In this document: positions 1,651 through 18,919 of the stretch, piece after piece
Position numbering within the stretch: the stretch's first letter is position 1
Layout of the letters: each line of letters starts with the position of its first letter
Source: a virus
Strand: one strand, 5' to 3'
DNA length: 20,567 bases
Virus record (IMG/VR): IMGVR_UViG_3300045747_000662
Span: 1-20,567 of that record
Made by a program: the position numbers and the translations under genes
The notes under the pieces: generated by a model
The model's input: the letters and a program-made list of their open reading frames with translations, nothing else
Told to the model about the DNA's origin: nothing
Databases searched by the model: none

Positions 1651-2322
1651 TTATTTACTCTCTAATATTTCATTTACAAGGTTTTGTATTTCGGTAATTG
1701 CTTTTTTATTGTCTAACTCTACTACTCCCATTCCTTGTAACAACGCATCTCGATATGTTTTTCTATCTCTTATGATAGTTTCTAGTAATTGTAGATATTC
1801 AGCAAACTCAGAAATGAGATTTTGAGCATCTTCGACTTCATGAATTAAAACGTGATTTGGAGCACATGAAATAACAATTTTAGATACAAGGCTTTCGTTA
1901 AAATCTTTAGCAACTTCTACAAGGTTACATATATGGGGTAGAGTTTCCAAGTCACTTTGACTTGCTCTGATAGGACAAAGAAATTTATCAGCTACAACTA
2001 ACCCCGTTCTTAAGCTTTTACTATCCCTGCCTGAAGCATCAATTAACACTAAATCATATTTGCTTGCAAAATCTTCTACTATATCTTTTATATTACCGTC
2101 TTTATAAACACAGCTAATTCTTGGATAATTTGAATTATTATTTTCGATTAACTCATTACGTCTATCTATCCAGTTTAATGAAGTTTTCTGAGGGTCTGTG
2201 TCGATAATAATTACGTCAGCTTTTCTATAACTAGCTTCAACAGCAATGTTAGTGGTAATTGTACTTTTACCAACCCCACCCTTTTCTCCGCCTATTAAAA
2301 TTACCTGACCTCTATCATTCAC
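1651..2322 (-). CDS. parA: Small ParA-type partition ATPase
   Basis: A 223-aa P-loop ATPase of the MinD/ParA family. It shows the deviant Walker A GGEKGGVGKST (residues 11-21) with the signature lysine, the DTDPQ motif (41-45) after a hydrophobic strand, and LVLIDASGRD (91-100) as the Walker B-like strand. There is no N-terminal DNA-binding extension, which fits small ParAs of type Ib, whose partner is a ribbon-helix-helix protein, here the next gene. ParA ATPases form gradients on the nucleoid and move plasmid copies apart. The start is a GTG at 2322, chosen because the Walker A follows at the normal distance; a candidate -35 TTGACT lies at 2388-2393. ParA of this size is common on Rickettsia plasmids. 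The family call is firm; a role in partition is well supported by context. Confidence 0.9.
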   Translation of the reverse strand: MNDRGQVILIGGEKGGVGKSTITTNIAVEASYRKADVIIIDTDPQKTSLNWIDRRNELIENNNSNYPRISCVYKDGNIKDIVEDFASKYDLVLIDASGRDSKSLRTGLVVADKFLCPIRASQSDLETLPHICNLVEVAKDFNESLVSKIVISCAPNHVLIHEVEDAQNLISEFAEYLQLLETIIRDRKTYRDALLQGMGVVELDNKKAITEIQNLVNEILESK

Positions 2323-7501: not shown

Positions 7502-7530
7502 ATTGTAACACAATCCACCTGATAAATATA
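7502..7530 (-). promoter_or_regulatory. Candidate promoter of the methyltransferase-helicase operon
   Basis: On the minus strand TACAAT (7507-7502) is preceded by TGT, giving an extended -10. The -35 region 17 bases upstream (TATATT) is poor. It lies about 65 bp before the ATG of the 57-aa gene and falls inside repeat copy 1, so a protein binding the repeat could control it. Based on hexamer match alone. Confidence 0.35.
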
Positions 7531-7590
7531 CCCGAACACCTTTTATTTATTAAGGTTAAGGCTGTTTTTTGAGTAATAGGTAATAATGCA
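7505..7590. repeat. Imperfect direct repeat, copy 1
   Basis: Shares with 7924-8012 the ordered blocks GTAACAC, ACCTRATAAATATACCC, a following AAC, a short hairpin (ACCTT/AAGGT here) and TAGG(T)TAATAATG, with small insertions between them. The copies are about 420 bp apart in the same orientation. Both lie between the divergent methyltransferase and terminase operons. Confidence 0.55.
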
Positions 7591-7923: not shown

Positions 7924-8012
7924 GTAACACCAAGAATCGACCTAATAAATATACCCTAACCCGTTTAATAGGTTAGGTTTAGAGCTATATATAACACGTA
8001 GGTTAATAATGT
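7924..8012. repeat. Imperfect direct repeat, copy 2
   Basis: Counterpart of 7505-7590. It contains ATAAATATACCC (7945-7956), directly followed by a clean 7-bp hairpin, CCTAACC/GGTTAGG, and then by TAGGTTAATAATG. Where copy 1 carries a TACAAT -10 on the minus strand this copy has TACTTA, so it is a weaker promoter or none. Confidence 0.55.
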
Positions 8013-8121: not shown

Positions 8122-8703
8122 ATGAAGAATAAAGATGATTTCACAAAATACTACACAGCAGGAAAGCCAACGAAATATGACAAAGAACAACATATAGGAT
8201 TATTGTTTAGTGTTTTTAATAATGGTGAAGGAGTAGCTGCTTTTTTAGATGAGGCAGCTATATCTAAACAAACATTTTATAATTGGCTAAAAGCTCACAA
8301 AGAATTCGCAGCAGCATACGAAGGAGCAATAAACCGTTCTCATAGACGATGGGAAGTTTTCCCTTTAAAGAATCCTGACTTTAATTTTCCTTATTGGTCA
8401 ATGATAATGCGTAACCGTTTTGGATATGGAAGATCACGCTTCAAACTATCAGATAAGAAAAAAGCTGCTGACATGATGCAAGCAGCAAAAGAGCATTTAG
8501 ATGAAGATAATATTACCATTAATGACTACACCGCCATAGTAAATAGCGCAAAAACGCAAGCTATTATTGACGGTGAGTATAATGAAGAAGACAAAACATA
8601 CCGTCCTAGCACTAGAGAAGAATTACTAGAGAAAAAAGCTCTACTAGAAAATATTGTTGCATCACAAACAAAAATTAAGAAAATAAGGAAAAGTAATGGA
8701 TAA
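8122..8703 (+). CDS. terS: Phage terminase small subunit-like protein
   Basis: A 193-aa protein starting MKNKDDFTKYYTAGKPTKYD. Residues 13-70 carry the small-terminase/HTH pattern: GKPTKYDKE, then FLDEAAISKQTFYNWLKAH as a helix-turn-helix, then a helix with EFAAAYEGAI. The middle has YWSMIMRNRFGYG, the usual central helix, and the C-terminus (about 150-193) is a charged, probably coiled helix ending in a lysine-rich tail. Small subunits bind the packaging site and hand DNA to the large subunit, encoded 113 bp downstream. AGGA stands six bases before the ATG. The assignment rests on pattern and on being followed by a certain large subunit. Confidence 0.8.
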   Translation: MKNKDDFTKYYTAGKPTKYDKEQHIGLLFSVFNNGEGVAAFLDEAAISKQTFYNWLKAHKEFAAAYEGAINRSHRRWEVFPLKNPDFNFPYWSMIMRNRFGYGRSRFKLSDKKKAADMMQAAKEHLDEDNITINDYTAIVNSAKTQAIIDGEYNEEDKTYRPSTREELLEKKALLENIVASQTKIKKIRKSNG

Positions 8704-8827
8704 CTTGAGGAATGAGTTCCCTTTTGAAGAACATTATTTAGCTATGTATAATTTGTTGTCGGTAATGTTTGCTAAAGAAAAACGACTAAATAGCCATTCA
8801 TTAACAGAAAAAACAAGTGACACCTGA
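8696..8827 (+). CDS. 43-aa ORF overlapping both terminase genes
   Basis: A 43-codon frame (MDNLRNEFPFEEHYLAMYNL at its start) begins eight bases before the small-subunit stop and ends eleven bases inside the large-subunit start. AAGGAA lies five bases before its ATG, a better ribosome site than that of the large subunit, whose GTG has none. This suggests that translation of the small ORF feeds ribosomes to the large subunit. The peptide is short and probably helical; I do not recognise it. It may be functional or may serve only for coupling. Confidence 0.5.
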   Translation: MDNLRNEFPFEEHYLAMYNLLSVMFAKEKRLNSHSLTEKTSDT

Positions 8828-10376
8828 AGAAATTGAACTAACTATTGTAAAAGCCGAACTTTCTCTCTATGAATTTTTAAAGCAAGCTTGGCCTATTATA
8901 GAAGGTAAAACGCCTTTTATCGATAATTGGCATTTAAAAGTTGTAGCCGAACATTTAGAAGCTTGTTATAGGCGAGAGATAAAAAATCTTCTAATTAATG
9001 TTCCTCCTAGAACCAGTAAGACAAGTTTAATTTCAATAGCATTTCCTGCTTGGGTATGGCTCAAGAATTCAGAAGAGAGATTTATGTATGCTTCCTACGC
9101 TCATGCTCTTTCTACCGAACATTCTTTAAAATGCCGAAGGTTAATCGAATCTGATTGGTATCAAAATAATTGGAGGTGGAAATATAAATTAGCTAAAGAT
9201 CAAAAGGCTAAAATGCTTTTTGAAAACAACAAAGGTGGATGTCGTATTGCAACAAGCGTTGGTTCTGTTGCTACTGGTAAAGGTGGAAACATAATTGTAG
9301 TTGACGATGGAAACAATGTTCGAGATGGGGAGTCTGAGGTAAAAAGACAAAGTACTAACAGCTGGTGGGATCAAGTGTTATCTACTCGTTTAAATAATCC
9401 TTTGCGTGATGTTCGTATTGTTGTGCAACAAAGACTTCATGAAAAAGATATGACTGGACATATTATAGCAAACGATACCGAATCAGAATGGGTTAAACTC
9501 ATTATCCCTATGGAGTTTGAAGAAAAACGAAAGGCTAAAACTGTAATCTTACCAAGTACTAACGGTAGTGTTTGGGAAGATCCTAGGGAAAAAGAAGGTG
9601 AACTATTATGGCCAGAGAGGTTTCCGCTCAATATAATAAGTCGTTTACAACGAGAATTAGGATCTTACGGATACGCAGGGCAGTATCAACAAAGACCATC
9701 TCCTCTAACTGGAGGAATCCTGCAAAGACATTGGTTTAAAAAATACCAATCTCCATATCTACCTAAATTTGATTTTATCATTCAAAGCTGGGATACGGCG
9801 ATCTCAGATAGCTCAACTGCTGCATATTCCGCTTGTACTACTTGGGGAGCGTGGAGTGAGAATAGTGAAGATGGTTTATACAAAGTAATACTTCTTTCTA
9901 TGTGGCGTGGTCGAGTAGGATATCCAGAACTGAGAGATAGAGCAAAGAGACTCGCTAAGGATTACAAAGATATTGGAGTTAATAATAATCTTCTCCCCGC
10001 ACAAAGCAGAATTGATTGTTGTCTAATAGAAGCAAAAGCTACAGGTGATCCATTAGTTAGAGATCTTAGATTAGCAGGTGTTCCTGCAATTGGTTATCAA
10101 CCCAAAGGCGATAAAACCAGCAGAGTACAAAGAGTTGCACCCTCTATTGAGTGCGGACTTGTGTATTTACCTACAGAGGAGAAAAACAAAGATAAGTTAG
10201 TACCTTTTGCCGATGAGTTCTTAGAGTCGGTTATTACTTTTCCAAATAGCGAATCAAGAGATTTAGTTGACACAATGACACAAGCATTGTCTTATTTGAA
10301 AGATAACGATTGTCTTCCTCATTCATCTGATGAAAGAGAGAAAGAAAGTGAACCTTTATATACATCAAAATATTAA
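8817..10376 (+). CDS. terL: Phage terminase large subunit (ATPase-nuclease)
   Basis: A 519-aa packaging motor. The ATPase half has the Walker A region NVPPRTSKTS (61-70), Walker B NIIVVDDGNN (158-167) and the coupling motif VVQQRLHEKDMTGHI (202-216). The nuclease half has an RNase H-like fold: FIIQSWDTA with Asp326, IEAKATGDPL (404-412) and an acidic residue in SRDLVDTMTQAL (Asp485). Length and order fit the family, which cuts concatemers and pumps DNA into empty capsids using ATP. Two details are unusual: the Walker A has Ser where GKS/GKT normally has Gly, and Walker B continues DDG rather than the frequent DDP. The start is a GTG at 8817, chosen by length and by overlap with the 43-aa ORF. 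No portal gene follows; the next gene is convergent. Confidence 0.92.
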   Translation: MTPEEIELTIVKAELSLYEFLKQAWPIIEGKTPFIDNWHLKVVAEHLEACYRREIKNLLINVPPRTSKTSLISIAFPAWVWLKNSEERFMYASYAHALSTEHSLKCRRLIESDWYQNNWRWKYKLAKDQKAKMLFENNKGGCRIATSVGSVATGKGGNIIVVDDGNNVRDGESEVKRQSTNSWWDQVLSTRLNNPLRDVRIVVQQRLHEKDMTGHIIANDTESEWVKLIIPMEFEEKRKAKTVILPSTNGSVWEDPREKEGELLWPERFPLNIISRLQRELGSYGYAGQYQQRPSPLTGGILQRHWFKKYQSPYLPKFDFIIQSWDTAISDSSTAAYSACTTWGAWSENSEDGLYKVILLSMWRGRVGYPELRDRAKRLAKDYKDIGVNNNLLPAQSRIDCCLIEAKATGDPLVRDLRLAGVPAIGYQPKGDKTSRVQRVAPSIECGLVYLPTEEKNKDKLVPFADEFLESVITFPNSESRDLVDTMTQALSYLKDNDCLPHSSDEREKESEPLYTSKY

Positions 10377-10815: not shown

Positions 10816-12636
10816 TTATGCAACATTGTTTTCAAGGCTTTTCACTTCTACGCCAATGTTCTTTAGCATTTCATAAGCTTCACTAATATATCTATCATAA
10901 TTGATATTCAGTAGCCCAACGCTTAAGTCCATTATAGGAAAGGCGTAATCACTATCATTTACTTTAGGGTCTTTTTTAGGAGTCCCATCTTTTTTTAACT
11001 CTACTTTGTCTAGTTTACGATATATAGGCTCACCCTCAGTTGACCAGTACCACCTGACTGTTTTACCTAAATACTTTCCTTTCCAATAACCACCAGAAAC
11101 TACTTTGCTCACCATCAAGAAGTTCTTTGGATCAGTATCATAGTTCAAAACTGTATCTTCTATGGGTTTACCTTCAAATAGATAACTTATTACAGCATCC
11201 ATACATACTTTTATTGTAGGGTTATGAGCTAAATCAGCCTCTACAAAGGAACCTTTACGTTTTAAGCTTTCATCTTCTTTTAAGGCAATATAGGAATTAA
11301 CACTCTCATTGTATAAAGCCTTGTATTTTGTTTCCTCTAAGTTCAAATTAGAAATTTCTTGCCAATTGTCACATACCTCTTTAAATAACTCATATTCAGC
11401 GTTTTTAACACGCACAACAATGCCGTCTGTATTAGCGCTTACTACACTCAAGCCATGTTCTTCTAACATTTCTATCAGCATTAACAAACTAAGTTGTCCG
11501 GTGAATGTTGTATGTAACATACATTTTGGCGAATATAAAAATGAATGCATGTCTCCAAACTTACCATAGATGCTATTAAGCACAATCTTGTAAATATTAG
11601 ATTTATCTATATCACCGCTTCTTTTAGCAATGATTCTATCCTCATAAAATTGACTAAACACATTAATGAACTTCTCGCCATTAAGATGGTAAGGTGCCCA
11701 TTTGTTATTGATAATCATCTTTGGATAGTTTCCAGTAACGTCAATATCTATCAACATCTCATCATCCTTAGCTACTAAAGCTCTCTTACTTTCCGTAGAG
11801 TGTAAACCACCAGCTCCAAAGCTATAAGTAGAACCGTTAATTTGAATTTTATCAGGTACACCCTCTTTATAATTCTTCTCTCCTATTTTACCCTTAAACG
11901 TTAATGCAGATATTGTAGTTACCAATCTTTGTAACTCTTCGCTTTTAAAAGCAATGTAGCTAGGAGCTGTGTACTGGAATTTATAACTGCCAGGAACGTA
12001 AATATTCATCTCCAATGCACCTAAAGACTTAAATATTAATTTTTCCGCAATACCAGCATCACCATCACTCCTAACATCAACACCATATTCATTGTTAATG
12101 TTGTTTCGTATCTCAAGAGGTTTAGCTAATGAGTTGTATAACTCAATTGTCAAATTTATATCATTTGAGCAATATTGCTTTACCTCTTCTTTTTGCTGCT
12201 CAGTTAACGGTTGACTAGGGTCGTATGGCAAATCCTGTAAGAATGGTGTATGCAACCTAGCCCCGTACATTTTTAAACTAGCTTTACCAGGTGCTACCTT
12301 GAATATGTCAATATGGTTGTAGTGCCAGGGACAGAATAAACTCAACGACTTTATCACATCATAGCTTTTTTCATCTTTACCAACTATCCTGTCAGACAAC
12401 TCTTTTAGCTCGGAATTACTCTTACCACGCATTGCATACTGAATCATAGGAATATCATACATACGAGAGTTAAAACCAATTGTAAGCCTTTCTCTAAATA
12501 GTTTCTTAATAACTTCTAAGTCTAGCTTATTATTTTCATCCAGCTCAAAATATCTTTTTCGACCATCGGAAAGTTTAAACATCACTAAAAAGTAATTTGG
12601 ATAGCATTCAACGTCTAGGTATAATAATGAACTCAT
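10816..12636 (-). CDS. Family B-type phage DNA polymerase with proofreading domain
   Basis: A 606-aa DNA polymerase. The exonuclease domain shows Exo I LDVE (Asp8, Glu10), Exo II GFNSRMYDIP (Asn56, Asp61) and Exo III YCSND (Tyr155, Asp159). The polymerase domain shows FGAGGLHS (the YxGG-like linker), motif A DVTGNYP (Asp299), motif B KIVLNSIYG (Lys350, Asn354) and motif C ANTDG (Asp404). It is shorter than replicative polymerase B enzymes, as in several phage and plasmid-encoded forms. Motif C has Asn where the first Asp of DTD is usual; the essential second Asp is kept. I place the start at ATG 12636 because Exo I then lies near the N-terminus and GAG stands eight bases upstream; an in-frame ATG at 12681 adds 15 residues. 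It lies downstream of the iteron region and the other replication genes. Confidence 0.85.
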   Translation of the reverse strand: MSSLLYLDVECYPNYFLVMFKLSDGRKRYFELDENNKLDLEVIKKLFRERLTIGFNSRMYDIPMIQYAMRGKSNSELKELSDRIVGKDEKSYDVIKSLSLFCPWHYNHIDIFKVAPGKASLKMYGARLHTPFLQDLPYDPSQPLTEQQKEEVKQYCSNDINLTIELYNSLAKPLEIRNNINNEYGVDVRSDGDAGIAEKLIFKSLGALEMNIYVPGSYKFQYTAPSYIAFKSEELQRLVTTISALTFKGKIGEKNYKEGVPDKIQINGSTYSFGAGGLHSTESKRALVAKDDEMLIDIDVTGNYPKMIINNKWAPYHLNGEKFINVFSQFYEDRIIAKRSGDIDKSNIYKIVLNSIYGKFGDMHSFLYSPKCMLHTTFTGQLSLLMLIEMLEEHGLSVVSANTDGIVVRVKNAEYELFKEVCDNWQEISNLNLEETKYKALYNESVNSYIALKEDESLKRKGSFVEADLAHNPTIKVCMDAVISYLFEGKPIEDTVLNYDTDPKNFLMVSKVVSGGYWKGKYLGKTVRWYWSTEGEPIYRKLDKVELKKDGTPKKDPKVNDSDYAFPIMDLSVGLLNINYDRYISEAYEMLKNIGVEVKSLENNVA

Positions 12637-12787
12637 AAAATCATCTCTATATTTATTACTATATTTATACCACAAAACCATTAAACAAGCTGCTTTTATC
12701 TATAAAAATAACTGAGATTAAATGATGTTTTCCTGAAAAATAAAAAGGATCATTCAAGAGTTCTGCTTTCTCTTCTTAGTAGAAAAA

Positions 12788-12821
12788 GCGACACTTGAAA
12801 CGTAGTGAAAAAGTGGAGCGC
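12788..12821. repeat. Stem-loop GCG-CACTT/AAGTG-CGC in the origin-like region
   Basis: Arms GCG+CACTT (12788-12796) and AAGTG+CGC (12811-12821), broken by one or three unpaired bases, flank a 14-base loop. It is the first of three stem-loops between the polymerase gene and the iterons. Confidence 0.4.
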
Positions 12822-12822
12822 T

Positions 12823-12848
12823 GTAATATTATAAAATTATAATATTAC
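12823..12848. repeat. Perfect 11-bp inverted repeat, all A/T but its ends
   Basis: GTAATATTATA (12823-12833) and TATAATATTAC (12838-12848) are perfect complements around a 4-base loop. Such AT-only DNA next to iterons is the type of segment that melts first in theta-type origins. A melting role is inferred from position. Confidence 0.6.
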
Positions 12849-12854
12849 TATAAT

Positions 12855-12883
12855 CTACACCCCTTTATTCTTAAGGGTTGTAG
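12855..12883. repeat. Stem-loop CTACA-CCCTT/AAGGG-TGTAG beside the iterons
   Basis: Two 5-bp arm pairs (CTACA/TGTAG and CCCTT/AAGGG) with a single mismatch between them and a 7-base loop. It stands nine bases before the first iteron. It could be part of the origin, or a terminator acting on the minus-strand transcript of the Rep-like gene; no U-run follows it. Confidence 0.45.
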
Positions 12884-12891
12884 AGGACTTT

Positions 12892-12979
12892 TTCCACAGT
12901 TGGTGGTGGGTTCTTCCACAGTTACTGGGGGATATTTCCACAGTTGGTATGGGATTCTTCCACAGTTGGTGGGGGTAAT
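12892..12979. repeat. Four 22-bp iterons, probable replication origin
   Basis: TTCCACAGTT occurs at 12892, 12914, 12936 and 12958, exactly 22 bp apart each time, and each is followed by a G-rich stretch (GGTGGTGGG, ACTGGGGG, GGTATGGG, GGTGGGGG). A period of 22 bp places every copy on the same DNA face, as in iterons bound by plasmid Rep proteins. TTCCACA is close to the end of the DnaA box TTATCCACA; the first copy, TTTTCCACA, differs at one base. The array begins eight bases after the stop of the Rep-like gene (12984-14360) and is flanked by an AT-only palindrome. The pattern is direct; its use as an origin is inference. Confidence 0.8.
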
Positions 12980-12983
12980 CATC

Positions 12984-14360
12984 TTAACGCCTGTTAATTC
13001 TTTTACTACTCTTTAACTTTTTTGCTACTTTTGCAGTGACTATATTTATTATCTTTCCCATACCATCATCACTTTTTGTTATCTTATCAGATTCTTTATA
13101 ACGTAATGAAGTAAACTCATATTGATCTTGGTTTTTAACTCCTTTTTGTTTTTTCCACCCTGAGATAATTGTTTTTTCAGACACCATATCACCAAATGCT
13201 CTTTCTATATACCCCACAACTCTCTTTTTATTTTTACGATATTCTTCATTTAAATTTAGAGTTTTGATTATAGTAGTTAAGTTTAATGCCTTTGTTCTAT
13301 TTTGTTGCGATATGTACCGTTCTAACCATATGAATAAACTAAATCCAATATCTGTTTTATTCACTTTTTTGAATCTTACAAGTCCTTTATTATCCATCAA
13401 AGTGCAATTTTGCAGTTTTTCTTTATTGAAAAATAAAAAACTTGAAAGCTTTAATCCTAATTTATTTCCTATAGGTTCAGTTTCTAGTATAAATTGAGTC
13501 TGGAGACCCCTCCCTGTAAATTCATCTATGACCAAATGTGATTTTCTCAAATTACCATCCATATTTAAGGCCATCTCTCTTATTGGTTTTGTTAATTTAG
13601 TATGAAAATCACCTTTTTTGCGTTTAGTTATTCCAAACTCTTCATATATTTTTGACCAAGGTATATATATCATTCCATCTGTATTCTCTATCTCTCCTAA
13701 AGACTGCATTCTAGCTATTATTACTAAAATAGATCTAACAAAAAGAATTTCGTGTTTTTCAAAATTAAAACCTAAATATCGGTCTAGTACATAGTCACCA
13801 TCTTTATTATCTAATTTTGCTAATTCTTGAATTTTAGTCGTAGGTGACGTTGCAAAGTTTTTTTCTATTGTATTTCTTAATTTTGCAATAATTATAATTC
13901 TTTCTTTTGAATCTTTAATATCTCTAATTGAACCATTCTGTTGTCTTGTCATTGCTTTCATTAAATGATTCGGTATAGGAATATCTTCAGGATTCTCTAT
14001 CTCGCTTACTTTTTTTTTATGTCGTAAAATTTCTACAACTTCTGTATAGAGTTTTTTTACTTTCTTTAACTGTTCTATATGTATGGTTCTGGCTTTGTCT
14101 GAAAGTATACTTTCTAAGAATATTATATTTAGCTGTTTTCTTCCTAGCTCTTTAGAATTAATACCTTTTACTATAAAATTTATTACAGCTTTCTCTTCAA
14201 TTTCTCCTATTTCTTTATTGACGCTCGGTGGGAGGGTTTCTATTTCTTCAATTATAGTATCAATTAGATAAATATTAGATTTAACCCATTCTATATGCGT
14301 TTCATTGTCAAACTCATTTGATGCTATGTTGATTTCATTAAATATTTGGATACTTTTCAT
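12984..14360 (-). CDS. Putative iteron-type replication initiator (Rep-like)
   Basis: A 458-aa basic protein with no certain family. Its central part (about 235-275, with IPWSKIYEEFGITKRKKGDF) and its later part (about 345-385) each resemble winged-helix domains, as found in tandem in RepA/RepE/Pi initiators; its C-terminus is very basic. It ends directly at the four iterons and follows the primase-helicase gene by 16 bp. Plasmid initiators of this kind usually bind iterons next to their own gene, so this is the best candidate iteron-binding protein in the window. The reading as an initiator rests on fold impression and position rather than on a recognised motif. AAGG stands seven bases before the ATG. 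It could instead be a different phage replication protein such as a helicase loader. Confidence 0.55.
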   Translation of the reverse strand: MKSIQIFNEINIASNEFDNETHIEWVKSNIYLIDTIIEEIETLPPSVNKEIGEIEEKAVINFIVKGINSKELGRKQLNIIFLESILSDKARTIHIEQLKKVKKLYTEVVEILRHKKKVSEIENPEDIPIPNHLMKAMTRQQNGSIRDIKDSKERIIIIAKLRNTIEKNFATSPTTKIQELAKLDNKDGDYVLDRYLGFNFEKHEILFVRSILVIIARMQSLGEIENTDGMIYIPWSKIYEEFGITKRKKGDFHTKLTKPIREMALNMDGNLRKSHLVIDEFTGRGLQTQFILETEPIGNKLGLKLSSFLFFNKEKLQNCTLMDNKGLVRFKKVNKTDIGFSLFIWLERYISQQNRTKALNLTTIIKTLNLNEEYRKNKKRVVGYIERAFGDMVSEKTIISGWKKQKGVKNQDQYEFTSLRYKESDKITKSDDGMGKIINIVTAKVAKKLKSSKRINRR

Positions 14361-14376: not shown

Positions 14377-16929
14377 CTATTTTAACGTAAATGTCTCATT
14401 GCTCGTGTCGATTTGATCTTTGTCTACTAGCAAAAACTCTGATGAATAAGCTTTTAAGTCTGTTTGACCTCTAGAGCCATTACGACTTTTTAGAATTTTA
14501 ATTGTTCTTGTTTCCTCACCATCTTCTTTGTCATTATCTAATTCTGCTTCCACGTTAGAAATATAGTCCTCATAGTCTTTCACCTTCTTTTCATCACATT
14601 CGGCTTTAGCCTTAAGTTTCTTTTTTTCATAATCCTCTAACAATAATAACATTTGTTCTTTTATAGACTGTTCTAAGTCCCATACTCCAAGTATTAAATT
14701 TGCATCTTGTTCAATATCTCCCGCTTCTCGCATTTTATCGGCCGTAAGAGTTGCTAGCGAGTAAACCATCCTATTAACTTGAGCTCCTAATATTATTGGC
14801 GCATGAAACCTTTTATTTAATGTCGTGTTTAGTAATGTTTCGCATATAACTTGGATCTCTTGCTGTCTATTTACTCTTTGTTCTTCTGTATTCAACTTTT
14901 GAGTATAATCTATATATACCGCTCCTATTGGCTTATATTTGTTCTCTTCCATAAACTCGACAGCCTTATCTATTAAGTCAAAACTTAATTTTTCAACACT
15001 AGATTTTTTACCCATCACACACATTCTACCTTCATCCATCCATTGCGTTACTTTTGAAATTGCCAAACTAATAGGGGTGTTATTAGTTTTATTTTCTGCT
15101 GTCCAGTATTGGGTTATTTCTTCCTTGATTGCCTGCCAATATGTTTGCTGTGGTATTACATTCTCTATTAATAAAAATTTACTTTTCCCTTCCATTTGAT
15201 GCTTTTTTCTCATTTTTTCAAACATCTCATTTGTCAAATATTCTACCTTAGCCAACGAAAGTACTATCTTATTAACTATGTCCTGCTTATGCTCTTCGTA
15301 GCTGTAAAACAAAAAAGAATTATCCTTGTTTACGTCTATCATGTTTCTAAACATATTGAGCATCATTGTTGTTTTTCCATGCGACGGTCTACCTGCTACC
15401 ATTGTAAGTGTCCCTGGTTCAATGAATACATGATCATCTAATTCTTTAAAACCTGTTTTAAAACCGAGTAGTTCTCTACTCATATCTGCCTCATACTCCT
15501 CCTTAGAGTATGGTCTATCATTAATAATGTCTTCGTATGTTTTCTTGTTATATTCGGTTGCAACTTTCAGTATTGTAGATATATCTTTTTTTGAAATTGC
15601 CTCTCTCAAGCTTTCTTCTAATTTAAATGCACTTTCCTCTATTTTTAATTTTTGAAGCTTATATGTATCTAGTTCCTCTTGTGCTAAAAACTCTTTTTCA
15701 ACTTGAGAAATTATTTCCTCTTTCTTTTTATCAAATTCAATTTTTATTTTTTCTAATTCCTGAACTTCCGCATTTTCCAGTATTTCCATGATCTTCTCTT
15801 CTTCTGGATTGTTTTTTAGTAATTCGTCTATATCTTTTACTTCATACTCAGTTAGTATTTTTGAAACAGATATTAATATTCCTCGCTCGGATAAATTTTT
15901 CAAACTGGATTTATAGTCCTCTCCAGCCTTATCATTATCTAGGAGTAAAATTACTTCCGTTATTCCTCGGTTTTTAAGCAACACTGCTTGTTCTATGCTA
16001 ACTGACCTACCACCTGAAGCTACAAAATGGTATTTGTCTTGTACCTTTTCCGACGAAAGATGTGTTGCAGACAATGCATCAAAATGCCCCTCTACTATAA
16101 CTAATTTTTTTCCACTATCTTCTTTGTAGTTATGTAAGTTAAATAGTATTTTTGACTTTTGAACACCCTTACTACTCATGTATTTATTAGATATGTTCTT
16201 TTTCTCAGTAGGTTTGCGCAAGAGAAAGCCTTTTATAACTCCATTTTCATCTTTCCAAGCTACAGTGATATTGTTCTTGGTAAATTCATAATTTGTACTA
16301 TCATTCCACTTGGTAACATTAAGTAATTTTTCTATATTACCTCTCGCCGTCTCCTCTTCATAACTATATTTTTCAACCATTTTGCTTATTATGTCCTTAG
16401 CCGGTGGTAATATTCCTATCTCAAATTTTCGTATAATATCTTCGGTATATCCACGTTCTTCTTGTAAATAATCTTTAACAAATTTAACTTGGTCGTTGTC
16501 TTCTAAAATAGTTTCCTTAAATATTTCATCGCACTGTTCTAAAAACGTTAGATCATCTTCTGTGAGTTCAAATTCTTTTTCTTGGAACACCACAGGACTT
16601 ATCTCTATGTCAGGTTTTGCCAGTGTGTCCTTAATGTACTTAACTATCTGTTTTTTTTCATTTTCATCAATTCCTAATTCGTCTGCTAAGAATTCCCACA
16701 ATTTCTTGTTATAAGCTGGTATATCATTCTCATAGCAATTATTCTCCCTGTTACATTTTATCCACCTCATGTTACCTATATACTCAATAAAAGCCTCTGG
16801 TTTCCGACAATTAGGACAAGTGATCTGATAATAAGTTCCATAGTCTTTGACTATGTTGACTCTGTTATATTCAAGTAACTTTCTGACTTGGTGTTTATCC
16901 AGTGTATTTGTATTAGTGATAGTGCTCAT
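14377..16929 (-). CDS. Fused primase-helicase (zinc finger, Toprim, DnaB-type motor)
   Basis: An 850-aa protein combining priming and unwinding. The N-terminal zinc finger has Cys38, Cys41, Cys59 and Cys65. The primase Toprim domain has VEGHFDA (279-285) and LLLDNDKAGED (328-338) with its metal-binding acids. A charged helical linker (about 375-480) follows. The C-terminal RecA-type motor has Walker A GRPSHGKT (513-520), Walker B VYIDY (671-675) and later GAQVNR and SRNGSRG, as in DnaB/gp4 helicases. The layout matches phage T7 gp4, but the protein is longer (T7 gp4 is about 566 residues). It would unwind the fork 5'-3' and synthesise primers for the polymerase encoded nearby. It sits 29 bp after the DnaA_N-type gene and 16 bp before the Rep-like gene, so the three are one operon. 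Confidence 0.92.
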   Translation of the reverse strand: MSTITNTNTLDKHQVRKLLEYNRVNIVKDYGTYYQITCPNCRKPEAFIEYIGNMRWIKCNRENNCYENDIPAYNKKLWEFLADELGIDENEKKQIVKYIKDTLAKPDIEISPVVFQEKEFELTEDDLTFLEQCDEIFKETILEDNDQVKFVKDYLQEERGYTEDIIRKFEIGILPPAKDIISKMVEKYSYEEETARGNIEKLLNVTKWNDSTNYEFTKNNITVAWKDENGVIKGFLLRKPTEKKNISNKYMSSKGVQKSKILFNLHNYKEDSGKKLVIVEGHFDALSATHLSSEKVQDKYHFVASGGRSVSIEQAVLLKNRGITEVILLLDNDKAGEDYKSSLKNLSERGILISVSKILTEYEVKDIDELLKNNPEEEKIMEILENAEVQELEKIKIEFDKKKEEIISQVEKEFLAQEELDTYKLQKLKIEESAFKLEESLREAISKKDISTILKVATEYNKKTYEDIINDRPYSKEEYEADMSRELLGFKTGFKELDDHVFIEPGTLTMVAGRPSHGKTTMMLNMFRNMIDVNKDNSFLFYSYEEHKQDIVNKIVLSLAKVEYLTNEMFEKMRKKHQMEGKSKFLLIENVIPQQTYWQAIKEEITQYWTAENKTNNTPISLAISKVTQWMDEGRMCVMGKKSSVEKLSFDLIDKAVEFMEENKYKPIGAVYIDYTQKLNTEEQRVNRQQEIQVICETLLNTTLNKRFHAPIILGAQVNRMVYSLATLTADKMREAGDIEQDANLILGVWDLEQSIKEQMLLLLEDYEKKKLKAKAECDEKKVKDYEDYISNVEAELDNDKEDGEETRTIKILKSRNGSRGQTDLKAYSSEFLLVDKDQIDTSNETFTLK

Positions 16930-16958: not shown

Positions 16959-18677
16959 TTAAACAATTCCTTTAAAATTCATTCCAAAACCAGCAACTAC
17001 TGATCTTACAGTATCTTCATAATTGGTACTTATCCAGTCCACAACAAACTGACTTGGACAGTTAAGTTCAATGGTACTTGCCACCTCATCAACATTAGCT
17101 GTTAGTTTGCTAAACCAGTTCTTGTAAACATAAACACCATACTCGTCTATTAACTTTTTTACAATATCTCCCCATATTCCCTTTGGGAAACTATCCTCTT
17201 CTTTATCCTTTGACATGGTAACGTTAGAAGCTCTTGTTCTTAGGGTTTTATTCTCAGTCACAATAAACTCAAGGTCTTGAATAAAAACAATATCGTCACA
17301 GCTTGTATTTTCGTAAACAGCTTTTGCTTGATTAAGTATCACTTCTTTCTCTAGTTCCGATAGTTCTACAGACTCCGTTAATTGAATTCTAAACACGTTG
17401 TTGTTAATTTTTAGGCAAATGTAGCTCTGAAGTAATTTATATGCCTTACAAGGACTTAAAACGCTGACCAACTTCTTTTTAAACTGCCATTCTGGGGTAA
17501 TACAATTTGAGTTTTCGATTCCTGCTAAAAACCGTTCTTGTTCCTGAGCTATTCTATCAATTTCCGTAATGTTTGCTTTTAGCCTAAAGTCAATACCACA
17601 TGTTTTGACAGCGTCATAAAGTTCATGTTCTAAAACCAGTGACATATAGGAAACAAAGCCTTTCCGAGTCTTGAAATTATGATTAGCCAAGCTTCGTTTC
17701 TTCGACATGGCAAGTAGTCGCTGGGCTATGAAGTTATTACTAAAGTCTCTACCAGACCCTGAGCGCAAGTCGTCATATATTTCTTGGTCTAGAAGTGAGT
17801 TCATGTCAGCTAGAGACTTTGGTTTAGAATAAAATACTGGTCTAATAATTTTTGCTTTGTGATATTTTTGCTCAAGTAATAATTTAGCTTTTTTTAATTT
17901 AATTTCTGAATTTGTTTTTTTCCTGCGTTTGTTCGAGCGGAATTTTCCTACCTTTGTCTCAATAACAGAATTTTGTTGGTTAGAATCAGTGTTTTCAAAA
18001 CAACATTCCTTTTCTGATACCAAGTCTTTAGTTTCAGTTGGAATATTATTTTCCTTTGAATTAACAAAACTAGAACTATTACAAGATATAGATTCACGCT
18101 CTTGCGTGTTAAATCTATCTTTTATATTCTTTTCATCCTTATATATAGAAGTGGGCACTCGACTGCCCGCTTTAATCTTTTTGTAATATTCTAGAGGGTT
18201 ATCTAATATTGCTTCTCCATTTGGAGTATATCTAAATATAATAACTTTACGCCTAACTACTCCATCAATTTTTTTTGCCTTATGCCATTTACTTTTAAAT
18301 ATATGACTGATGTTTTTACGCATTATATTATTTTGGCGTTTATTGTTCCCTGTAAAATAAGACAACTCGTCATGTGATAAATAGGCTACTCTGCTAACAT
18401 TACCTTTTATCATATTGTTGATATTAGCTATTAAGTCCTGCTCCTTCCTAGTGACTGATGCATTTAGGTCAGTGGCTTTACATATGAAGTTAAAGTCATG
18501 TGTTTTTAGGGTGAATTTAATTTTTTTTTGCTCAGCATTAAAGTCTGTATAGTAGACTTTTGCAGCTTTAAAGATTGGTCTGGTGTTTTGAAGGTCGTGT
18601 TCTTCTAAGAAGCTAAAACCTTTAGTATAACGAGATGTAGGAACACTTAACGCATTCTCTATTCGCATAGTCTGCAT
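16959..18677 (-). CDS. Plasmid Rep-like protein with C-terminal DnaA_N domain
   Basis: A 572-aa protein. The last 80 residues match the DnaA N-terminal (DnaA_N) fold: IWGDIVKKLIDEYG, NWFSKLTANV, STIELNCPSQFVVDWI and a final helix. In DnaA this domain binds DnaB and oligomerises. There is no AAA+ ATPase and no DnaA domain IV. The N-terminal part (about 10-160) looks like a winged-helix Rep region, the middle is charged and low in complexity. Proteins of this kind are known on Rickettsia plasmids and are presumed initiators; that they load a helicase is inferred. I place the start at ATG 18677 because the preceding in-frame stretch (to a TTG at 18776) is cysteine-rich and unlike the rest; another ATG lies at 18668. 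It heads the replication operon. Confidence 0.75.
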   Translation of the reverse strand: MQTMRIENALSVPTSRYTKGFSFLEEHDLQNTRPIFKAAKVYYTDFNAEQKKIKFTLKTHDFNFICKATDLNASVTRKEQDLIANINNMIKGNVSRVAYLSHDELSYFTGNNKRQNNIMRKNISHIFKSKWHKAKKIDGVVRRKVIIFRYTPNGEAILDNPLEYYKKIKAGSRVPTSIYKDEKNIKDRFNTQERESISCNSSSFVNSKENNIPTETKDLVSEKECCFENTDSNQQNSVIETKVGKFRSNKRRKKTNSEIKLKKAKLLLEQKYHKAKIIRPVFYSKPKSLADMNSLLDQEIYDDLRSGSGRDFSNNFIAQRLLAMSKKRSLANHNFKTRKGFVSYMSLVLEHELYDAVKTCGIDFRLKANITEIDRIAQEQERFLAGIENSNCITPEWQFKKKLVSVLSPCKAYKLLQSYICLKINNNVFRIQLTESVELSELEKEVILNQAKAVYENTSCDDIVFIQDLEFIVTENKTLRTRASNVTMSKDKEEDSFPKGIWGDIVKKLIDEYGVYVYKNWFSKLTANVDEVASTIELNCPSQFVVDWISTNYEDTVRSVVAGFGMNFKGIV

Positions 18678-18919
18678 ATTTATTACCGCAAAGTAAATTA
18701 TTGGTAAGAAACATTGGCACTTGACAGCTTGACATGAATATACTATTCTCGCAGTCATAACTAACTGAAAGTGCAATGCTTTTATTGGTTTGTTTGAAAG
18801 TTTTTATAAAAAGTCCGGGAAGATTTAAAATAAAATAACTTTCTTAATTTAATATCTTGTATAGCTTAATGTTTTACATGTTCTATCTTAATAATTGGTT
18901 AACATAAATATATAGTAGT

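Follow-up and report, generated by a model that had tools for sequence, protein, structure and literature searches.

Gene content of the window and its relatives

The window analysed here is the whole 20,567-base IMG/VR record, which is classed as linear and is therefore probably a fragment. Its replication region consists of a polymerase gene, a gap containing a repeat array, a putative initiator gene (rep) and a primase-helicase gene. The features referred to below are as follows.

1651-2322, minus strand: ParA-type partition ATPase, 46% identical to ParA of CP113870.1
6106-7272: MT-A70 methyltransferase
8122-8703, plus strand: terminase small subunit-like protein
8817-10376, plus strand: terminase large subunit, 61-62% identical to three Megaera plasmid copies
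10816-12681, minus strand: phage-type DNA polymerase, polB (phrog_1252), the first gene past the array
12755-12797: second potential hairpin, also conserved, which includes the near-identical block CTCTTCTTANTAGNAAAAGCGAC
12823-12848: AT-only inverted repeat with 12-bp arms and a 2-nt spacer, candidate DNA-unwinding element or hairpin
12891-12978, plus strand: four 22-bp iterons (units 12891-12912, 12913-12934, 12935-12956 and 12957-12978), consensus YTTCCACAGTTggTggGGGwtn
12984-14360, minus strand: rep, 458-aa putative initiator, with a mostly helical N-terminal part of ~190 aa followed by two predicted winged-helix domains
13182-13280, minus strand: predicted helix-turn-helix (HTH) of winged helix 2, rep codons 361-393
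13569-13658, minus strand: predicted HTH of winged helix 1, rep codons 235-264, including the predicted recognition helix LTKPIRE
14377-16929, minus strand: primase-helicase (DNAG_N, Toprim, DnaB_C), upstream of rep and co-oriented with it, 61% identical to its Megaera plasmid counterpart
16959-18776, minus strand: protein ending in a DnaA_N domain (DnaA domain I only) and related to the 'DnaA-like' proteins of Megaera plasmids

The window also encodes helicases and the start of a YqaJ recombinase, and no capsid genes were seen in its 20.6 kb. The terminase subunits, ParA and the rep module place packaging genes together with partition and replication genes on one element, as in a phage-plasmid, and bear out the sequence-only reading, which had proposed phage packaging genes in an element with plasmid functions. 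The N-terminal part of the methyltransferase weakly matches ParB-like partition families (PHROGs). The methyltransferase and terminase small subunit genes are separated by a gap of roughly 850 bp, possibly a packaging or regulatory region, which contains a 52-nt direct repeat (7512-7563 and 7935-7986, 75% identical) and three TAATGCAACAAAA-like repeats.

The closest annotated relative, CP113870.1 (NDG2 unnamed3), is a 57,422-bp circular plasmid from strain NDG2 of Candidatus Megaera polyxenophila, a member of the Rickettsiales that lives as a symbiont in the ciliate Euplotes woodruffi. Genes for ParA, helicase, polymerase, Rep, primase-helicase, terminase, DnaA-like and YqaJ proteins are common to the two elements, and the gene order polB - array - rep - primase-helicase is identical. 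Because CP113870.1 is the closest annotated relative and has so many genes in common with the window element, the host of the latter is most likely a Megaera-like Rickettsiales bacterium. A second detectable relative, the viral contig IMGVR_UViG_3300027804_003508 (hereafter the viral contig), was reached only by an alignment query. Close-relative scans of viral contigs that used only the Rep, DnaA_N and PolB proteins gave no match, and neither did scans of genome contigs.

The terminase genes (8122-10376) lie in the opposite orientation to those of CP113870.1 and in a different place relative to the replication block; the two elements therefore differ by a rearrangement. Another plasmid of strain NDG2, CP113869.1, has terminase and YqaJ/RecT genes related to those of CP113870.1. 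Besides its terminase, CP113869.1 encodes a GroES-like protein and a series of probable virion genes, whereas CP113870.1 has a terminase and the replication module with no annotated capsid genes; the two are possibly a helper/satellite pair. CP113870.1 also contains two very large 'SecA-like domain' genes, one of them of 15.7 kb, in a region that includes 36608-50000.

A conserved 22-bp repeat array downstream of rep

The array lies in the 302-bp gap between the stop codon of rep and the start of polB. TTCCACAGTT starts at 12892, 12914, 12936 and 12958, a spacing of exactly 22 bp, and the window contains no further copy with up to one mismatch, nor any other iteron-like cluster or isolated iteron. 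Tandem Repeats Finder (TRF) reported a period of 22 at 12880-12975. None of 200 dinucleotide shuffles of the whole window contained four equal 10-mers at constant spacing, and in the same set even three equal 9-mers at constant spacing did not occur (0/200). The repeat tails are G-rich (GGTGGTGGG, ACTGGGGGA, GGTATGGGA and GGTGGGGGT). Both the perfect 22-bp phasing of four repeats and the G-rich tail on each, which had been noticed from the letters of the sequence, were thus confirmed. Five viral contigs contained two TTCCACAGTT copies ~22 bp apart, none of them among the matches of the Rep protein scans, and an Rfam search gave no RNA match.

Of three further descriptions of the locus, the first and the last required softening. 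The array had been placed at the end of a Rep-like gene: its edge is indeed ~5 bp beyond the rep stop codon, directly downstream of rep, while the term 'Rep-like' is an inference made without a database match. An 11-bp AT-only inverted repeat had been described beside it: the inverted repeat is present ~43 bp from the array, and its arms (GTAATATTATAA at 12823-12834 and TTATAATATTAC at 12837-12848) are 12 bp, of which 11 bp are A/T only. The cores had been called DnaA-box-like: the first copy, TTTTCCACA, is within one base of TTATCCACA over nine positions, and the other copies are not.

The gap of CP113870.1 contains three repeats in 22-bp phase (11782-11847; core TTCCACA, TTTCCACAAAACTTCATAGGT), the middle copy being degenerate. 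The viral contig contains two, also in 22-bp phase (11394-11437, minus strand; core TTCACCA, TTTCACCAAAACTTCATGGGT). Phase, orientation and place are conserved in all three elements, and copy number and sequence vary; the tails of the CP113870.1 repeats differ from those of the window, and the Rep proteins of these two elements are 54% identical. A search for the array in related elements therefore found it in both detectable relatives, in the same position and AT-hairpin context, and no further iteron-like copies occurred in the stretches searched, 50 kb of CP113870.1 and 15.5 kb of the viral contig. The array is a real, conserved iteron array.

Comparison of the gap across the three elements showed that both relatives keep the AT-only inverted repeat and the second potential hairpin. 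Phased direct repeats adjoining a putative Rep gene and an AT-rich region beside them (12823-12848) are thus both present, as in iteron replicons. In the consensus structure of the gap, 28 pairs are kept, three of them with changes on both sides. The block CTCTTCTTANTAGNAAAAGCGAC within 12755-12797 is near-identical in all three elements despite differing flanks; possible roles are a single-strand initiation site and, upstream of the polymerase gene, an RNA element.

Sequence and predicted fold of Rep

Searches of Pfam, PHROG and NCBIfam with Rep gave no match, and a search for the RPA family was likewise negative. The Rep_3 model (PF01051) did not match the window element or its relatives at E values up to 10, while control genomes did match. 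Profile comparison of Rep with three Rep_3 proteins (RepE, P1 RepA and pSC101 RepA) was empty, PDB sequence searches gave chance hits only, and a direct MAFFT alignment with RepE was not reliable.

AlphaFold models of Rep were of low confidence (mean pLDDT 38 for the whole protein and 44 for residues 195-430), because only two sequences were usable. The order of helices and strands in the C-terminal model corresponds to two winged helices. Foldseek comparison of this model with 350,542 PDB chains gave the RepE-operator complex 2z9o as the top match (E 0.019, probability 0.84), spanning nearly the whole model, with a probability of 0.20 for the next best among the matches listed. No Foldseek match to the Rep models reached E 0.001 or better, and the full-length model gave no RepE match. 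In VIA-align the top match of the C-terminal model was RctB domains 2-3 (172 residues at rmsd 7.3, Z 5.9), and numerous RepE54 entries came next, with RepE at up to Z 4.8; these Z values are under 8, below the safe level of the tool. The model comparisons are no more than suggestive of a tandem winged-helix fold of the RepE/RctB type, and Rep probably represents an initiator family that is missed by current profile libraries.

Co-variation of the repeats and Rep

Comparison of CP113870.1 with the viral contig from the primase-helicase through the polymerase gene shows mostly 93-100% DNA identity per 100-base bin, with a few other bins at 82-91%. The array is only 61% identical, and two patches of rep are 80% and 86-89% identical; these patches are the predicted HTH units of the two winged-helix domains. 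The array and the rep patches are separated by ~200 bp at 97-99% identity. The two Rep proteins are ~92% identical and differ at 34 codons. The two predicted HTH segments (63 of 456 codons) contain 21 of the 34 amino-acid changes and 6 of the 29 silent changes, a difference whose p value (Fisher, p = 0.001) is indicative, since the segments were delimited by the secondary structure of the low-confidence model, after the clusters had been seen. The repeats themselves differ by only three bases per unit. The repeats and the predicted DNA-reading parts of Rep thus appear to have changed together in two close relatives, a co-variation that rests on one independent specificity change.

The more distant window sequence suggests which lineage changed. 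The predicted recognition helix 1 of the window Rep has T, LTKPIRE, as in CP113870.1, and the core TTCCACA is common to both elements, unlike the viral contig, in which the helix has P, LVQPIKE and the core is TTCACCA. This points to winged helix 1 as the reader of the left half of the repeat, with the viral contig as the changed lineage. Recombination may have made part of the pattern, because rep codons 187-341 are also richer in silent changes. The primase-helicase genes of CP113870.1 and the viral contig, otherwise near-identical, also have a cluster of amino-acid changes near the C-terminus (codons 777-799), where a partner contact might have changed along with Rep; because of this cluster, clustering alone is no proof.

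Function of the array

The array is most likely the binding site of the adjacent putative initiator, judging by its place and its co-variation with rep, and it is probably a replication origin. The best reading of the locus is an iteron origin or an iteron control locus with an orphan RepE/RctB-like initiator. The proposal of a working plasmid-type origin is partly supported by conservation of the array in both relatives, one of them a complete circular plasmid, by the initiator-like adjacent gene and by the co-varying predicted helices; the array may be the start site itself or an incompatibility/control array. Cumulative GC skew, suggested as a check, shows no inflection at the array; since it follows the coding strand in both the window and CP113870.1, it was rejected as an origin marker and neither supports nor refutes an origin here.

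We consider it unlikely that the repeats are a Rep-binding incompatibility or copy-control locus resembling P1 incA, with initiation elsewhere. The nine incA iterons of P1 lie directly downstream of repA, with oriR upstream, and the array here likewise follows the rep stop codon. However, control loci of the P1 type accompany a separate origin array, neither a second array nor an isolated iteron occurs in the window or the searched parts of both relatives, and it is this array that the AT-only inverted repeat adjoins. Because no second array was found, one site serving both control and initiation is favoured. The array also lies 210 bp upstream of polB, within its 302-bp upstream gap, and weak sigma-70-like sites occur between the two, as would be expected if the repeats were an operator for polB and the winged-helix protein mainly a transcriptional regulator of the replication operon. 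This is improbable, as the promoter-like sites are no more numerous than in shuffles (3 versus 1.9 ± 1.6) and the proteins matched by the low-confidence Rep model are initiators. A group of two to four direct repeats sharing orientation and helical phase, as here, is typical of origins; operators of the RepE type, by contrast, are inverted. That the repeats might be a parS-like partition centromere, or an unrelated tandem repeat, is scarcely credible: the element has a ParA and direct repeats can be centromeres, but in the window, as in CP113870.1, ParA lies ~10 kb from the array, which stays beside rep and co-varies with it.

The sequence-only reading had also suggested a part for host DnaA or the DnaA_N-type protein, and the core TTCCACA does resemble TTATCCACA. 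Rickettsia plasmid vectors, moreover, have been built on dnaA-like and parA genes (PMC3244465, PMC9004397). Against binding of the repeats as DnaA-box-like sites by either protein, the core is TTCACCA in the viral contig, and the window contains 17 DnaA-box-like 9-mers against 14.2 expected, which is no enrichment. The DnaA_N protein contains only domain I by Pfam, with no match for the AAA+ domain or domain IV. In addition, the DnaA_N proteins of CP113870.1 and the viral contig are ~33% identical over most of their length and 59% identical over the last 75 residues, while the repeats of these elements differ by only the three bases noted above. The conserved DnaA boxes of a DnaA-dependent origin are thus not seen here, DnaA boxes as the main function of the repeats were rejected, and the suggested role of these proteins at the repeats, which we regard as very improbable, is not supported.

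Proposed mechanism

On balance, the 22-bp repeats are likely to be iterons bound by an orphan two-winged-helix initiator of the RepE/RctB type, the product of 12984-14360, at an origin that would work as follows. One Rep monomer would bind each repeat, all on the same helix face since 22 bp is about two turns, and its two winged helices would each read half of the repeat. As the repeats filled cooperatively, the AT-only inverted repeat ~43 bp away would melt; the primase-helicase of the element (14377-16929) would be loaded there, and the element's polymerase (10816-12681) would carry out extension. The array may also limit copy number by titration or handcuffing. While the array, its conservation, the synteny and the co-variation of the repeats with the predicted recognition helices are observed, we infer the binding, melting, helicase loading and copy control.

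DnaA domain I interacts with the helicase in known systems. It also interacts with the pSC101 RepA initiator (PMC4980987). Because of these interactions, we propose that the DnaA-domain-I protein (16959-18776) perhaps helps in helicase recruitment; it is possibly a helicase recruiter or a second initiator. The start site could lie elsewhere, because replication of Rickettsia shuttle vectors relies on dnaA-like and parA genes (PMC3244465).

Comparison with known replicons

The locus resembles the Rep_3/RepE iteron plasmids (F, P1, R6K, pPS10 and pSC101) in its phased direct repeats beside rep and its AT-rich stretch, and may also resemble them in the two winged helices predicted for its putative initiator. 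Published iteron origins of this type contain 2-7 repeats of 17-22 bp, and those of R6K and pPS10 are also 22 bp (PMC4980987). Unlike these plasmids, the window has its array downstream of rep, its Rep shows no sequence similarity to PF01051 and has an extra N-terminal part of ~190 aa, and the element brings its own primase-helicase and polymerase. RctB, the initiator of Vibrio chromosome 2, has RepE-like central domains without detectable sequence homology to plasmid Reps (PMC6090056). It is likewise a large initiator, and is the top VIA-align match of the Rep model, but differs in its 12-mer and 39-mer repeats, its control by Dam methylation and its length (658 aa, versus 458 aa for the window Rep).

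Phage P1 (oriR/incA) is also a phage-plasmid with iterons, ParA and a RepE-type initiator, and with iterons directly after rep, but it has 19-bp repeats in two arrays and no polymerase gene beside the array in the region compared. The Rickettsia plasmid replicons (pRAM18, pRM) have Rickettsiales hosts, a DnaA-like protein and ParA in common with the elements studied here; the vectors derived from them differ in being built from dnaA-like and parA genes. The word 'iteron' is absent from the reports of these vectors, and the portions of those reports considered here describe no mapped origin alongside the dnaA-like and parA genes (PMC3244465, PMC9004397). No description of CP113870.1 as an iteron replicon was found in the literature.

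We tentatively suggest, as a possibility of somewhat less than even standing, that a separate iteron-initiator family, combining a DNA-binding half like that of RepE/RctB with a new N-terminal domain, drives Rickettsiales phage-plasmids that have their own primase-helicase, polymerase and DnaA-domain-I protein, and that sister elements have switched iteron specificity by changing little more than the recognition helices and the repeats, giving new incompatibility groups. Plasmid incompatibility rests on the DNA specificity of initiators, and CP113870.1 and the viral contig would then form a natural experiment in how that specificity changes. Few genetic tools exist for the Rickettsiales, which live as obligate intracellular bacteria; a compact array of 22-bp iterons, together with the Rep that matches it, would provide a defined candidate origin.
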